Source: Fischerella thermalis PCC 7521
GTDB lineage: Bacteria; Cyanobacteriota; Cyanobacteriia; Cyanobacteriales; Nostocaceae
DNA: 64,000 nucleotides
Direction: 5' to 3'
Assembly (NCBI RefSeq): GCF_000317225.1
Contig: NZ_AJLL01000103.1
Coordinates: forward strand, 1 to 64,000
Shown here: in pieces, positions 8,804-23,295 of the stretch
Position numbering within the stretch: position 1 is the stretch's first letter
Layout of the letters: every line of letters starts with the position of its first letter
Notes under the pieces: model-generated
Database searches by the model: none
The model's input: the letters and a program-made list of their open reading frames with translations, nothing else
What the model was told of the DNA's origin: nothing
Translations under genes and position numbers: made by a program

Positions 8804-9172
8804 TGCTAAGGTCATTTTTATTTTTTACTACTTTAGGAACTTCTAAAAAATCATGGGAGTTTCTTATAGCTTTTATTGTTTAAAATTGATGAGTAAATGT
8901 AATTATTAAAATTTGGAATTTCAAAGATAAATCTCAAAATTCAAAATTGCCATGATGGGTATTACCCATCATACTTGCAATATTGAATGAATGTTATTAT
9001 TAGCGATCGCACTTAAAAATCTTCCTCACATGTTTGAGGAGATGCAATACAAAGAGCGATATCACTGATTTTGTGCGAAACAAATCAGAATTATTTGCAA
9101 AAAGAGGGATAATAATTGTTGTGGTTAAAAGTGAGGAGACTTTCTAGCCAAGTGCCAATATAGGAGGTAAAG
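8804..9172. other. spacer with a perfect palindrome
   Basis: No gene seen. A 9-bp perfect inverted repeat with an ATT loop lies at 8952-8972 (ATGATGGGT/ACCCATCAT). A HIP1 octamer lies at 9003-9010. An AGGAGG at 9162-9167 serves the next gene. Confidence 0.5.
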
Positions 9173-17391: not shown

Positions 17392-17500
17392 TTATACCAA
17401 GTTGTGTTTAAAAACCTCACCCCCTGAAGGGGTGCCAAAGACGGGGTGAGGTAATATCTATGAATACAACTCGGTATTAATTTGACTTTTGCAAGAAGTC
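17392..17500. repeat. foldback (MITE-like) element followed by a dispersed repeat copy
   Basis: Near-matching ends ATACCAAGTTGT (from 17395) and ACAACTCGGTAT (to 17477) point inward in opposite orientation around an inner stem CCTCACCCC/GGGGTGAGG (about 17415-17453). The element is about 90 bp with no coding capacity, so it looks like a small non-autonomous foldback element. Directly after it (17477-17500) is the 24-base repeat also seen at 4897-4920. Confidence 0.6.
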
Positions 17501-17706
17501 TAAGAAAGTTACGGAATCTAAAACAGGGTATTTCTTCTTTTTTTACCTAAATCAATCTAATAACCCCAGACCACTTTCTAAATTTGATAACTGATAAATG
17601 TCCACTGATTTAATCATTCTGCCATACCATAAATTACTAACTAGTATGGCAGGTGATGTGAAACTCAACCCAGTATATTTCTGGCTTTATTGACCCAAAA
17701 GATATC

Positions 17707-18177
17707 TTAGTTGATTTCACAAAATTTGAATGACAAATCTTGATTACTTTCTGGTTTGAGTTCCGCTTGCATTGATTGGTATTCGCGAATTTGTGTTCCT
17801 AGCCACTGGTTTTGATGACCACCACGAATTTCTCTTTTTTGTTTACCCACTACTTCTAGATAAGCCAGATCCTTGATTTTACTTAAGCAACTTTGTGAGG
17901 GATTGCTATCAGATTTTTTCTCGGAGGGAAGTTTGGCGACTTTGAGATTTTCCTTGCGCTGTTGATTAACTCTTTTGAGTTGCGAGTTTTCTTTGATTAA
18001 TCGGTTGTAGGTGCGGTAAGGAATGTAATGTAAAGGATTGTAGCCAGCAAACCGTAGTATTAAGACACAAGCCCAGGAATACTTACCTGCAAGAATGGCT
18101 TCAACTAACTGATCAAATTGTTCTGGGTTAAGAGTCTTCTCAAAGTTGCTAGTAGCGCTAGATATATTTTGGTTCAT
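17707..18177 (-). CDS. hetP: HetP family heterocyst commitment protein
   Basis: A 156-residue protein with the signature HetP block at residues 27-61: [20 protein letters not shown] followed by [17 protein letters not shown]. The rest is Lys/Gln rich and divergent, as in other family members. HetP acts late in the decision to become a heterocyst and is a direct HetR target in Anabaena PCC 7120 (established knowledge). The start is the ATG at 18177, with AGGA ten bases upstream; the frame is open further to a TTG at 18243, which I reject. The gene begins 72 bases after the HlyD-type gene on the same strand, and hetC is upstream of both, so this is a hetC-hetP type locus. Cyanobacteria have several HetP homologues; position next to hetC favours the true hetP. 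Confidence 0.88.
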
Positions 18178-18249
18178 GGTGCTGTTGTCCTGTATAGAAT
18201 AAATAAGTTTGTTAGTTTTTGTGGTGAAGAGTGACCCAAGCAAGATTTA

Positions 18250-19182
18250 TCAATCGCTTTCGCTGTTTTGCAATTCCTTCATAGGTCTGAGGAACATATC
18301 AGCAATACGGCGATGGTGAATGATTTCGGCTGTGACTACTTGTCCGGGTGTGAAGTTGACAGTTTGATTGCTATCCAAAGCTATTTCTACCCAACGCACC
18401 CAACCTAATCTTTTATCTGTTTGAGCATTCCTGGAGACTGAAACAACTCTTCCTGAGAGAATGTTGTTATTTCTATAGCTAGGAATACTCTGCTTTTGCG
18501 TTTTAGCAACATTTAGACGCTGGGAATCAAAATTGAGCTTGATTTCTACCAAATCTCCTTTATCAACAAATGCTGCTTTTTGGGAGGGTAGTATGAGCAA
18601 CAAAACCCCAGACGCATGAATTGGAGCAATTTCTGCAATAATTTGCTTAGGTTTAACTTCCTCGCCAGTACTACGGATATTTAAAGAGGACACAACCCCA
18701 TCTATAGGTGCGTACAGAGATTTTGACTTTAACTGTACTTGGCTTTTGTTGAGCAAATTTTGAGTTTCGGTAATCTTCACTACTTTACCCAACTCTTGTG
18801 GTTGAAGTTGATAAAGCTGTTGTGATGGTGCAACTTTTCCTTGAACTTGGCTGACTTGTTGTATCTTTCCAGTACAGACCCAAACTAATACAGTTGCAAA
18901 AAAAACTAGACCGCCCAACAAAATTAGATGAGGAACAATAGAAGGGCGTTGTTCTAATACTTTTTGCAAAGATGTAGAGTAATAATTACTTGTACTTGTA
19001 ATTCCTGTCTGGATTGTAGGTAGTTCTGAGAAAACTGCTCCTGGTGAAGCAACACTACCTCCGTAAATTGATGCCATTTCAGGTGTTAGAGCGTAGCAGG
19101 GATGCACATCCTGTAAGTTAATTTCTAAACTCCCTGATTGACTTGAGGTTTCGACTGCATTTGACCTGATGATTCTGTCCAT
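18250..19182 (-). CDS. short HlyD-type membrane fusion (adaptor) protein
   Basis: A 310-residue relative of the HlyD adaptors that work with peptidase-type ABC exporters. A cytoplasmic tail of about 80 residues is followed by one membrane helix (about 83-104, HLILLGGLVFFATVLVWVC). A GKVAPSQQLYQLQPQELGKVVKI segment is then joined almost at once to the second lipoyl half (LKSKSLYAPIDGVVSSLNIRSTGEEVKPKQIIAEI, about 151-186) and the beta-barrel region (to about 292). Normal members are roughly 450-550 residues and carry a long alpha-helical coiled-coil hairpin between the lipoyl halves; here it is missing together with much of the first half. It lies between hetC and hetP on the same strand. It may be a partner of HetC that no longer reaches an outer-membrane TolC channel, or a decaying gene with an intact frame. 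Confidence 0.75.
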   Translation of the reverse strand: MDRIIRSNAVETSSQSGSLEINLQDVHPCYALTPEMASIYGGSVASPGAVFSELPTIQTGITSTSNYYSTSLQKVLEQRPSIVPHLILLGGLVFFATVLVWVCTGKIQQVSQVQGKVAPSQQLYQLQPQELGKVVKITETQNLLNKSQVQLKSKSLYAPIDGVVSSLNIRSTGEEVKPKQIIAEIAPIHASGVLLLILPSQKAAFVDKGDLVEIKLNFDSQRLNVAKTQKQSIPSYRNNNILSGRVVSVSRNAQTDKRLGWVRWVEIALDSNQTVNFTPGQVVTAEIIHHRRIADMFLRPMKELQNSESD

Positions 19183-19376
19183 GAGCTGACCTAAAATCGG
19201 AAACCTGACTATGAGTTTTAGGTTTGATAAGGCAGTGACTGAGGCAAAAATTTACCTTGAGTCATCTTTGTTGAATGGTAGGAAAAAGTCTCCGTTTGGC
19301 TCTTAGTAGATGTAGTTTTGCCCTCTTGAATATTTGGCTCACTCCTAATTTAATTACTTTCCCCTGGACATGTTAC

Positions 19377-19390
19377 GTAGTTTTTTATAC
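19377..19390 (-). promoter_or_regulatory. possible NtcA site upstream of the adaptor-hetP genes
   Basis: GTAGTTTTTTATAC fits the NtcA core GTA-N8-TAC. On the minus strand a TAAATT (TA-N3-T) follows about 24 bases later, close to the usual spacing of an NtcA-activated -10 box. It lies about 195 bases before the adaptor start. This short motif also occurs by chance in AT-rich DNA. Confidence 0.4.
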
Positions 19391-19573
19391 TAAAAATTAG
19401 GAGATGTTTAAGTGAAGCTGCTGGGATTCTACAAGAGCAAAGAAAAAAATATTCATGCTTGATTTTCAAGGGCAACATTCGTACTTATACTATTTTTTTT
19501 CATGAATGTCATCTGCTGATTTTTCATTTCTTTCCGTTCGGTGTAGTCAATATTTTTCCCTATCTAACTAATT

Positions 19574-19630
19574 ATTATACAACTCAGATTTTGTCCATCA
19601 GTGTTAAATACATTAGGGGTTTCGCCCCTC
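19574..19630 (-). promoter_or_regulatory. HetR operator with -10 box upstream of adaptor-hetP
   Basis: On the minus strand 19630-19614 reads GAGGGGCGAAACCCCTA, which closely matches the 17-bp inverted repeat bound by HetR upstream of hetP in Anabaena PCC 7120 (GAGGGG-N5-CCCCTC, from memory). The flanks also match: GTAGGT before and ATG after. A perfect TATAAT lies 34 bases downstream at 19579-19574, which would place the operator at about -55 from a start near 19567. The transcript would then run through the adaptor into hetP with a leader of roughly 385 bases. Confidence 0.75.
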
Positions 19631-19952
19631 ACCTACTATTTATTTTTGACTTTGATTTTTTCAAAAATTATGAATTTCACTATGAACTTTATTGATGAGT
19701 TTTCAATAAATAGAAATACGCACATGTGATGTTGTTGATGTTTACGTGGCAGGAAAAATAATAATAGCTTTTACTGTTATAGCAAGATAATCTTGTTTGT
19801 ACTTACGACAAAAAGCTTACCTGAAATTGTTTTCAGATTAGCATTCTATTGCAAATTTATAGTAAAACTGCTGTTAATTTTACTTGAAAATAAATACTTT
19901 GCTGTAAATAAATAGTTGTGTTTTTTACCTTTTTATGGTATTATGTTTAAGG

Positions 19953-20142
19953 CACTTTTAGCAATACATCTATCAATCAAAAACAATTACTACAACAATT
20001 TTTTCGCAGAACAAATGTAGCGGTTAACGCTGTGCAAAATTATGAAGTACAGCAACTACAAAGAAAATTAGTCGCTATTGGTATCCCTCAGTATTTGAAA
20101 AATTTATTTGCATCTTTTCTGCACTCCAATTCATTGATATAG
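19953..20142 (+). other. orphan coding-like open frame, no start codon
   Basis: A 62-codon open frame on the plus strand ending at a TAG at 20140-20142, seven bases from the hetC stop on the other strand. Its translation has amphipathic, protein-like composition (KQLLQQFFRRTNVAVNAVQN, then YEVQQLQRKLVAIGIPQYLK, then NLFASFL). It follows an in-frame stop and has no ATG; a GTG at 20032 would give only the last 36 residues. A different frame offers an ATG at 19943 (MFKALLAIHLSIK), and a one-base slip in the A5 run near 19979-19983 would join the two. It could be a decayed or frameshifted small gene. I do not recognise the family. Confidence 0.3.
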
Positions 20143-20148
20143 GTGCGA

Positions 20149-23100
20149 TTACAGACGTAGTTGTTGTTGAAATAAGTGGTAATAAAGACCCTGAATTGTC
20201 ATTAATTGTTGATGATTGCCTTGCTCAATGAGGATACCTCGGTCTAAAACCAAAATGTGGTCAGCATGGCGAATGCTAGAAAGATGACGGGCAACAAAGA
20301 AGATAGTGGTACATGCTTCATGAGTGGAAGTGTTGCTGGAGGGACGCAAATGAGCTAGATTTGAGGTGTTATCCAGGCAACTAGTAACTTCATCTAGAAT
20401 TAGGATAGGTGGATTTCTAACTAGGGCGCGGGCGATCGCTATTTTTTGGCGCTGGTCATCAGCAAGCATTATCCCTCCCTCACCCACACGGGTGTTGTAA
20501 CCTAGAGGTAAGGCTTGGATAAAAGTGTGTGCATCTGCAACTTTAGCGGCGGCGATCGCTTCTTCTAGGGAAATCTCTGAATTAAACAGTGTGATATTTT
20601 CCAAAATGCTGCCAGCAAATAGAAAAATATCTTGCGGTACAACCCCTAATTGACCACGCAACGACTGGGGAGAAACCTCAGCAATATTATGCCCATCAAT
20701 TAAAATACGTCCGCTATGGGGACGATACAAACCTGCCAGTAAATTCACTAAAGTACTTTTACCAGAACCGTTAGTACCAACAATTCCTACAGTCTGTCCT
20801 GCTTTGATTTGAAAGGAAATATTGTGCAAGGTGTTGCGTTCTGCATTGGCATTGTAACGAAAACAAACCCGTTCAAACTGGATATCACCTCGAATCGGAG
20901 GTAAAACCATTTGTGGTTGTTGGCTATTTTCTTCTGGTTGGGTTGTAAGGATATCATCTAAACGTTCAGCACAAATCAATATCTCTTGTAACTCATCCCA
21001 CAACTTCACCAGTGCTAAAACAGGGTTGATTGTACTGCCAATCAGCATATTAAAAGCAACAAATTGACCAATTGACATCTGGTTGCCCATCACTAGCATT
21101 GCCCCGTACCATAGTAAAAAAGTGATCCCCAGATGATTGATCAAACTAGTTGCTAGCTGTAAATTATTAGCCAACTTCTGACCCCGAAATCTTGTTTGGA
21201 CGGTGTTGGTAAAACTTTCCTCCCAACGCCAGCGCATTGGACGTTCAGCAGCAGCTGTTTTAACTGTGGCTACACCAGTGACAATTTCTAGGATTGTGGA
21301 ATATTGCACCGCCGATTTTTGGTTAAGTTCTCGTGACGCATCTTTGAGAAGTGGGCTAGTTGCATTAGTCACAATCACAATGGGTAGAATTAAAAGCAAG
21401 ACAATGAGAGTCAAGCGTAAGTTGTAATATGCCATCAATCCCAAGTAAACAATCACCATGACCGCATCTAGGGTTGTACTAAGCGCTTGCTTGGTGAAAA
21501 ATAGTTGAATTTTGCGGTTTTCTTGAATACGAGTAATAATGTCTCCTGGTTGACGGGATGCAAAAAACTGCAATGGTAAGCGCAGGGTACGGCTAATAAA
21601 ACCGCCTAGTAACGTCAAATCCATGCGGTTGGAAAAATAGTCCAGCAAGTATTGGCGCACTGCTTGGACGATAATCCGCCAAATGCCAAAAAATAGAAAA
21701 CCGAAGGCGAAGATATTTAGAGTCAGAGAACTTTTATAAGGCAGAACTTGGTCAAGTACAACCTGAGTAATTAAAGGTGCTGCTAAACCAAACACTGTTA
21801 ATAGTACTGACGCTAGAACGATTTGCCCAAGTAATTCGCGGTGATGCCAAAAAGCGTGCCAAAATTCTCGTAAGGAAACTTTTTCGTTCTGTTGAGCGTC
21901 TAAGTGTTTGGTTGGGAATAATAGCAGAGCATATCCTGTCCAGTTAGCTTCAAACTCTGGACGCAAAAGCGATCGCTTGCCAATTGCGGGATCACAGAGC
22001 AATACGCGATCGCCTTTGACTCGCCAAACAACCACGTAGTGAATCCCTTGCCAATGAGCAATCCAAGGATTAGGTTGTAACTCTAATTTGCTCAAAGAAG
22101 CTCTAACTGGTAAAGCATCATAACCTAAGGTTTCTGCCGCATCCGCTAAAGACGAAAGCGAAGCCCCCATCCGGTCTGTCTGCGCTAGGTTTCGTAACTT
22201 ATTCAGGCTGAAACGCTTACCCCAGTAGAGGCTAATCATCGCCAAACACGCAGCACCACAATCAGATGAACTCTGTTGCTGGATAAAAGGATAGCGACGC
22301 CAGAGTTTGCTGACCGACCAGCGCTGTTCCCTCGGTGGTAGCAAATTCATCTCTGCATAGGTATTTTCAGAAGACACAGCCGTCGTGTCCCCCTTGTCTT
22401 CCTTGTCCCCCTTTTCCTCCTTCTCCTCCTTCTCCCCGTATCCCCCTTCTCCCTGCGTCCCCGTGTCTTCTTTCTGTTGCTTGTGGAGAAAAATTTCCGG
22501 TGCAATTGTGCTAGCTAATTCTTCATATTGTTGAGGTAGGTGGTATACTAGTAGATCCGTTTTGGCAACCCAATCTGGGATTGTAGCATCGGGGTATCCC
22601 CAGCTTTCTCCTACTTGTGGTGGCTGATTTTCTAGCGTGGCACTCAAAATTTTTCCACTCCGCAGCCAAAAGCGTCCTTTTGATGGAGGGGTCGCTTCTG
22701 CCAGGGTAGAACCAGCACTGACGCTAGCTTGTTCCAAGTAAGGTAAAAGCTGGCGTAAAGAATGGCTGGTATGTGAACGTAATTCTGTGGCGGTTTTGAA
22801 AAAAATCAAAGTTTGTCGCTCACAGGTTATCTTTTGCAAATAGCGTTGCAAATTAGGTAGTCGTTTTAACCACTGTTTCAGGTCATCTACATGTATTGAT
22901 GCAACTAAACCAGCACTAGCTGCGACTGCTCGATACCTAAAAGGCTGATTGTGGAATAAATGGTCTACTCCAAAGGTTTGCTCTGCTATTAGCAACTGAG
23001 TAGATACCTCCCGTTTCAATTTTGGATCAAATCCCAGCAGCCGCACTCGACCTTGGCAAACTAAAAAAAGAAGATTATTTTGATTTTCTGTTTCTCCTGC

Positions 23101-23295
23101 GATCGCTAACTCCGCCAACTCATCCCCTAACTGAAATTCACGCAAAACCCAAATTTGATGAAAGTCGGATGCGAGGGTTGTGTCTTCTGCGGCTATCCTC
23201 AAAAGCTTAAGGATAGTCTGTTTTGGGATTGAAAATTTCTGATTTTTTGTATAAACAGGCTCTCTGTTAACCCCTAACGACGAATACGAGTTCAT
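20149..23295 (-). CDS. hetC: HetC, peptidase-type ABC exporter for heterocyst differentiation
   Basis: A 1048-residue ABC exporter with the HetC architecture: two N-terminal cyclic-nucleotide-binding-like regions (about 30-275), a C39 peptidase domain (about 335-460), a six-helix membrane domain (about 485-770) and a C-terminal ATPase. The peptidase keeps its triad: Cys346 in SSDCGAACLAMI, His419 in GIHYVVVW, Asp435 in CDPAIG. Walker A is normal (GTNGSGKST, 840-848) and Walker B is ILILDE (964-969). The ABC signature, normally LSGGQ, reads LADDQ (944-948), and the H-loop reads VARHLS instead of the usual AHRLS, so an Arg stands where the His should be. A charged Glu/Lys/Gly linker (277-304) is encoded by a repeat. 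In Anabaena, hetC acts just after hetR in heterocyst formation. Gene order hetC-adaptor-hetP and length (HetC of PCC 7120 is about 1044 residues) support the name. Confidence 0.9.
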   Translation of the reverse strand: MNSYSSLGVNREPVYTKNQKFSIPKQTILKLLRIAAEDTTLASDFHQIWVLREFQLGDELAELAIAGETENQNNLLFLVCQGRVRLLGFDPKLKREVSTQLLIAEQTFGVDHLFHNQPFRYRAVAASAGLVASIHVDDLKQWLKRLPNLQRYLQKITCERQTLIFFKTATELRSHTSHSLRQLLPYLEQASVSAGSTLAEATPPSKGRFWLRSGKILSATLENQPPQVGESWGYPDATIPDWVAKTDLLVYHLPQQYEELASTIAPEIFLHKQQKEDTGTQGEGGYGEKEEKEEKGDKEDKGDTTAVSSENTYAEMNLLPPREQRWSVSKLWRRYPFIQQQSSSDCGAACLAMISLYWGKRFSLNKLRNLAQTDRMGASLSSLADAAETLGYDALPVRASLSKLELQPNPWIAHWQGIHYVVVWRVKGDRVLLCDPAIGKRSLLRPEFEANWTGYALLLFPTKHLDAQQNEKVSLREFWHAFWHHRELLGQIVLASVLLTVFGLAAPLITQVVLDQVLPYKSSLTLNIFAFGFLFFGIWRIIVQAVRQYLLDYFSNRMDLTLLGGFISRTLRLPLQFFASRQPGDIITRIQENRKIQLFFTKQALSTTLDAVMVIVYLGLMAYYNLRLTLIVLLLILPIVIVTNATSPLLKDASRELNQKSAVQYSTILEIVTGVATVKTAAAERPMRWRWEESFTNTVQTRFRGQKLANNLQLATSLINHLGITFLLWYGAMLVMGNQMSIGQFVAFNMLIGSTINPVLALVKLWDELQEILICAERLDDILTTQPEENSQQPQMVLPPIRGDIQFERVCFRYNANAERNTLHNISFQIKAGQTVGIVGTNGSGKSTLVNLLAGLYRPHSGRILIDGHNIAEVSPQSLRGQLGVVPQDIFLFAGSILENITLFNSEISLEEAIAAAKVADAHTFIQALPLGYNTRVGEGGIMLADDQRQKIAIARALVRNPPILILDEVTSCLDNTSNLAHLRPSSNTSTHEACTTIFFVARHLSSIRHADHILVLDRGILIEQGNHQQLMTIQGLYYHLFQQQLRL

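Follow-up and report, generated by a model that had tools for sequence, protein, structure and literature searches.

A conserved HetR-type operator upstream of an eroding HlyD-like gene and hetP in Fischerella thermalis PCC 7521

A 17-bp inverted repeat in the hetC-hetP spacer of Fischerella thermalis PCC 7521 is very probably a HetR operator of the hetP transcription unit, in which a gene for an HlyD-like adaptor would be included by position. Comparison of related genomes lends good support to a predicted adaptor-hetP operon under HetR. The repeat lies in a stretch of 64,000 nucleotides (contig NZ_AJLL01000103.1, positions 1 to 64,000), referred to here as the window, and the features under discussion, in the direction of transcription, are as follows.

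20149..23295, minus strand: hetC, encoding a C39 peptidase plus ABC exporter (open reading frame and domain search)
19614..19630, minus strand: HetR-type operator GAGGGGCGAAACCCCTA, found at the same place before hetP in same-family genomes
19560..19597, minus strand: block A, consensus GGGACAAAATnnAAAGTTGcACAATACnTAAGTAAATAT, containing the -10 box of the original prediction (80-genome conservation profile)
19574..19579, minus strand: P1, candidate -10 hexamer TATAAT; start predicted near 19567, with the operator centred at -55
19536..19549, minus strand: block B, consensus TTCAGTAAATTTAAC (80-genome conservation profile)
19481..19516, minus strand: block C, holding the P2 candidate
19484..19512, minus strand: P2, candidate core promoter ATGACA-N17-TATAAG; start predicted near 19477, with the operator centred at about -145
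19298..19316, minus strand: leader block D, ACTACATCTACTAAGAGCC (consensus ACTGCATCTACCAAGAGCC), strongly conserved
19138..19191, minus strand: adaptor start element, GGTCAGCTC-ATG...CAA, conserved at the nucleotide level
18250..19182, minus strand: HlyD-like adaptor open reading frame (ORF), 310 aa
17707..18177, minus strand: hetP, likely start ATG 18177, with the frame open from TTG 18243

The plus strand reads TAGGGGTTTCGCCCCTC at positions 19614-19630, and hence the minus strand from 19630 to 19614 reads GAGGGGCGAAACCCCTA; re-reading the sequence gave the repeat letter by letter as originally reported, and the TATAAT noted 34 bases downstream of it is found at exactly that distance, at 19579-19574 of the minus strand. 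Of the 12 positions that are fixed in the HetR site GAGGGGN5CCCCTC (17 bp), the repeat matches 11, the last being A instead of C, and the GGGN5CCC core is present. On its own the motif is not significant, either in the window, where GAGGGGN5CCCCTC with up to two mismatches has two matches against 0.75 expected (equalled in 19 of 100 shuffles), or in the 5.44-Mb genome, where GAGGGGN5CCCC occurs at five distinct places, as many as a reversed control pattern. TATAAT occurs 19 times on the two strands of the window versus 45.9 in shuffles, so that, by simple arithmetic, any 60 bases on a single strand have a chance of about 1% of holding one. What is decisive for the putative operator is its position and conservation, not the motif alone. 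A further GGGN5CCC repeat, GATGGGTATTACCCATC, with two mismatches to the HetR site, lies at 8954-8970 on the plus strand of the window.

For the comparison, each genome contributed the 5 kb that precede its best hetP match, which in some genomes may be a paralogue. The same-family set comprised 107 genomes, namely our own and 106 others (all 87 genomes with a match in a first search, and 19 of 20 later additions), and the outside set was drawn from other families of the same order, in which 18 genomes had a match and 11 of these were used. An operator was counted where GGGGN5CCCC, with at least 9 of the 12 positions, lay between the end of hetC (or 2.5 kb) and hetP. This rule rendered an operator before hetP in 101 of the 107 same-family genomes, with scores of 9-12 out of 12, and in none of the 11 genomes from other families of the order, while dinucleotide shuffles of the same regions gave a mean of 0.15 operators and a maximum of one in 20 rounds; a chance motif is ruled out by the 101 occurrences against the 0.15 expected. 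The motif thus stands at the same position in relatives, where the original prediction had suggested looking for it, even if two of the positives (L078 and L116) are doubtful and look spurious, the match lying inside a neighbouring long ORF and block C being absent. Six genomes (L045, L079, L087, L106, L117 and L120) show no operator at the score of the rule; L106 has a weaker repeat, TAGGGGGTGTCACCCCCTA. In an alignment of 80 genomes, the GGGG and CCCC of the operator are 100% conserved and the loop is free. It had been anticipated that the motif would be conserved while its flanks drift, and the operator core is indeed the most conserved stretch, but some 150 nt downstream of it are conserved too. 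The operator lies upstream of the HlyD-like ORF in all 64 genomes that have both, and two more GGGN5CCC sites are found between the adaptor start and hetP, in L092 (9 of 12) and L100 (8 of 12).

Two observations concern the fate of the region in single genomes. In L049, L050, L067, L089 and others the 5 kb preceding hetP contain no HetC match, and yet the operator, often together with an adaptor remnant, is kept, so that the operator appears to outlive the neighbouring hetC. In L045 (G010), blocks A and C are retained and the operator is missing, a natural operator loss, which indicates that the promoter can do without the operator.

The genome of strain PCC 7521 contains a single HetR gene, with HetR_C over the cut-off, whose product aligns with the crystallised Fischerella HetR (3QOD; DNA complexes 4IZZ, 4J00 and 4J01) along its whole length (298 of 298 residues), the printed alignment showing no mismatch. 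According to the available text of PMC4192349, the hetP promoter of PCC 7120 contains a sequence bound by HetR, GAGGGGTCTAACCCCTC, and the hetC-hetP spacer is covered by a ChIP peak of HetR at 3431297..3432038. Gel shifts described in the accessible part of PMC4649674 found GGGN5CCC to be indispensable for HetR and the other tested bases dispensable, and therefore the one off-consensus base of the present operator should not matter. The hetP operator of Anabaena/Nostoc PCC 7120 and the one described here share the 17-bp layout, the GGGGN5CCCC core and the location in the spacer downstream of hetC; they differ in the last base pair, which is off consensus here, and in the HlyD-like gene, which here lies between the operator and hetP. 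In the nine g39 genomes fetched, which we take to be near PCC 7120, such an ORF was not detected. Genome comparison supports the proposal that the repeat is an operator of the HetR type already familiar from hetP promoters. A HetR site before hetP is textbook knowledge and not new.

The promoters of hetZ provide a limited yardstick, their HetR site being located in a conserved coding region. In Nodularia, the HetR site of hetZ extends from 56 to 17 nt ahead of the mapped start, and the table of starts in the available text gives no mapped hetP start (PMC3610870). The hetZ HetR site, GGGTCAAGCCCAGCA, is conserved in our own genome (G000:C22) and is, like the hetP operator, a HetR-type repeat upstream of a long leader; unlike it, the site lies within a neighbouring coding region, with 23 nt to its -10 box, not 34. 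Elsewhere in the genome, GAGGGGTAATACCCCTA (L135, G000:C8:33296-33310) is found about 100 nt upstream of an ORF reading like a GGDEF response regulator, a possible further HetR target, and an operator with 12 of the 12 positions, GAGGGGTGAAACCCCTC (L136, G000:C46:13595-13611), lies about 700 nt upstream of an ORF reading like a PAS-type regulator.

The hetP product is recognised by the NCBIfam HetP_family model (NF037966; 5e-36, 122.2 bits, over the cut-off of 45), and its likely start follows the stop of the HlyD-like gene by only about 70 nt. With the adaptor gene placed between operator and hetP, and so narrow a gap behind it, the adaptor should share the control of hetP and would be, by position, HetR-controlled as well, as the original prediction had proposed. 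An HlyD-like protein is also present in the relatives Fischerella muscicola PCC 73103 and PCC 7414, Fischerella sp. PCC 9431, Pelatocladus and Westiellopsis. In Mastigocladus UU774, in which hetP is single-copy, the available text of PMC9284123 gives hetC as BLD44_008735 and hetP as BLD44_008725, numbers that fit a gene between the two; according to the same text, hetP of this hot-spring Mastigocladus laminosus was not significantly changed by nitrogen stress in samples taken at day 12. This observation, as far as the available text goes, counts as a point against the operator reading, together with a motif no rarer than its controls, the six of 107 genomes lacking a site and the second site of L092.

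Two promoter candidates follow the operator. The start at about 19567 claimed from P1 is not established: TATAAT occupies the aligned position in 12 of the 99 operator-bearing genomes, CACAAT in 27, even though the hexamer was taken as the best match within a short range, a choice that favours the consensus, and a start at about 19477 is predicted instead from a -35/-10 pair that lies 90 nt further along and is better conserved. Eleven of the 12 genomes with TATAAT belong to the Fischerella group, the twelfth being L099, and ten of these 11 form one supported set in a tree of HetC (69 ORFs, quick method); the eleventh, L053, has the same genus number as two of the other ten. The sixth base of the hexamer, T, is 65% conserved in the 80-genome alignment, and a promoter scan of the window copy found no good -35 box at 16-18 bp from TATAAT. 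P1 does not look, therefore, like a conserved sigma-70 promoter, in spite of its perfect -10 box in this genome, although activator-dependent promoters may lack a -35 box. P2, on the other hand, has the form of a conserved sigma-70 promoter with a 17-bp spacer, 10 of 12 bases agreeing with the consensus by count. It is found, by a loose criterion, in 98 of the 99 genomes, with ATGACA in 70 of the 98, TATAAA in 68 and TATAAG in 14; the promoter scan omits it because T is demanded at position 6. Among the 107 same-family genomes, 93 have block C with up to 8 mismatches in 30 positions, and in 90 it stands at a distance of 93-100 nt behind the operator; in the 11 outside genomes it is absent, the best match having nine mismatches. 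P2 is thus far better conserved than P1 and could serve as the principal or the basal start, and two starts, P1 and P2, are possible. As far as the open-licence literature goes, the conserved block behind the operator is new.

It could be, with a probability a little below even, that HetR works on P1 as first proposed, with a start at about 19567, P2 then being of no relevance or a start of its own that does not depend on HetR. P1 resembles the hetZ promoter, the distance from operator to -10 box being 34 nt versus 23 nt in the hetZ promoters, an extra helical turn. This spacing, the conservation of block A and the match of TATAAT to the consensus in six of six positions would agree with P1, against the mostly different aligned hexamer with its variable last base and the better conservation of P2. 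That HetR acts at a distance on P2, with the main HetR-dependent start at about 19477, likewise has a probability a little below even: ATGACA-N17-TATAAA/G is nearly fixed at 93-100 nt from the operator in 90 genomes, but an activator centred at about -145 would be unusual, P2 is so close to the consensus that it may need no activator, and block C could be taken, too, for a start in the minus-to-plus direction (TATACT). In PCC 7120, an antisense RNA in the hetC-hetP spacer increases by 12 h (available text of PMC3141674), and block C could also serve an antisense start.

The antisense RNA of PCC 7120 (PMC3141674, available text) is also one of the reasons for considering the repeat an RNA feature, either a hetC terminator or an antisense-RNA hairpin, and not an operator; the other is that a scan of the minus strand marks the hairpin and the weak T run behind it as resembling a terminator. 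This reading is very improbable, since the repeat lies more than 500 nt beyond the hetC stop with a T run of AATGTATTTA, conservation tracks the HetR contact bases, the loop being free to vary, and the sequence matches hetP sites bound experimentally (PMC4192349, available text). No Rfam family scores above its gathering score in 17500-20400. A terminator as the main reading was rejected in view of the weak T run and the distance to hetC.

Between the promoters and hetP, two further elements are conserved. The first 45 nt of the adaptor gene and the preceding 9 nt hardly vary, even at third codon positions, and this start element is conserved at the nucleotide level in about 70 same-family genomes. 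Third-position conservation is 0.86-1.00 at codons 4-9 (49 non-redundant rows); at codon 7, Ser and Leu alternate and the third base is kept. The element is retained even before ORFs of 19-41 codons (L052, L069, L113, L043, L064, L062 and L107), and looks as if it were under RNA or DNA constraint. Block D is partly complementary to it, the window pair having a mismatch in the middle; across the 69 of 76 rows with a D match of at least 13, 433 of 483 cells pair versus 426.4 in shuffles, and 14 of 2000 shuffles reach 433. With alifold, the energy was 0, and hence no consensus RNA structure emerged, both around the start element and in the sequence immediately before it. Block D and its surroundings were also considered as a small coding gene under conservation, a reading rejected because the indels are not in triplets. 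Further genomic copies of the start element were also rejected, five of the six near-match places being in or antisense to unrelated coding ORFs (four in one gene family and one in a response regulator) and the sixth likewise in a long ORF. Nothing on the hetP leader was found in the open-licence literature.

The HlyD-like protein itself was described as an adaptor, and a working adaptor is not supported by the window copy, in which the first lipoyl half and the whole alpha-hairpin are missing, with a gap between ELGKVVK and ITETQNLL, so that it falls short of the two lipoyl halves plus alpha-hairpin of a type I secretion HlyD. It resembles the HlyD-type membrane fusion proteins of PCATs in the position of its gene beside a PCAT (hetC), a transmembrane helix, the second lipoyl half and barrel residues, and differs from them in the missing parts and in scoring below the NCBIfam cut-off (TIGR01843, 61.3 bits versus 208.65, over model positions 253-414 only). 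A structure model is too poor to judge (mean pLDDT 38.7). With a profile iterated on its own hits, whose weakest rows (E >1e-6) are doubtful, an adaptor-related ORF was detected in 67 of the 107 same-family regions (E <=1e-3; 55 at E <=1e-10). These ORFs measure 61-438 codons from stop to stop, many of them under 210; in nine of the 11 outside genomes the ORF has 537-643 codons, and the outside adaptors show both lipoyl halves and a long hairpin in the protein alignment. In the same alignment, PCC 7414 and two others have a shortened hairpin. The deletion in the named relatives differs from that of the window copy, and the HetC tree pairs L100 (337 codons) with L150 (404 codons) as sisters, from which it follows that the hairpin was lost at least three times within the window's group.

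Rates of substitution point in the same direction. The dN/dS of the adaptor is 0.28-0.42 in the window's genus and its sister genus and 0.27-1.08 in other pairs (23 of 24 pairs computed), compared with 0.02-0.24 for hetP in 21 of the same pairs (two L100 pairs with eight usable codons being left out), 0.20-0.38 for hetC (10 pairs) and 0.17-0.21 for outside adaptors (three pairs), a pattern indicating weak and falling constraint. The window adaptor looks, from these comparisons, like an old exporter partner of HetC in decay. That it is a working, HetR-induced partner of HetC is unlikely. Such a role would agree with an in-frame gene in the window's relatives, with the constraint still evident in that group and with the transmembrane helix and C-terminal barrel residues kept; it is opposed by the missing lipoyl half and hairpin, the partial TIGR01843 match, the short ORFs of the family and the dN/dS of up to 1.08 elsewhere, against that of hetP. 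No paper joining hetP, hetC and HlyD was found in the open-licence literature, as far as which goes the adaptor gene between hetC and hetP and its graded loss are new.

From the sequence of the repeat, its place and conservation, the gene order and the intact HetR gene matching the crystallised one, we infer binding by HetR, activation and adaptor-hetP co-transcription. After nitrogen step-down, a HetR dimer would bind GGGN5CCC at 19630-19614 and raise minus-strand transcription through the HlyD-like gene into hetP. HetR control of the adaptor, a decaying HetC partner, is then probably a passenger of HetR control of hetP. HetR control would be placed upstream of the whole adaptor-hetP unit, and the conserved downstream block offers exact mutation targets in the hetP promoter.

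HetC is a peptidase-containing exporter essential for heterocysts, and the decay of the adaptor is relevant to the case made in the literature for HetC as an exporter to the periplasm. By the present comparison, the adaptor gene had its place in the hetC-hetP interval, behind the HetR operator, with a complete gene outside the family and graded decay inside it, so that the absence of an adaptor becomes a testable evolutionary series. A wider picture, which we advance as a tentative and rather doubtful one, is that in the heterocyst lineage HetR captured an old hetC-adaptor-hetP promoter as the adaptor lost its outer-membrane reach, HetC being now a periplasmic exporter and the first 50 nt of the adaptor gene an RNA-level control in the hetP leader. 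If this is true, the hairpin was shortened in every adaptor found and removed independently several times, the gene being finally lost, and HetC would have changed from export to the outside to delivering a signal into the periplasm between cells.
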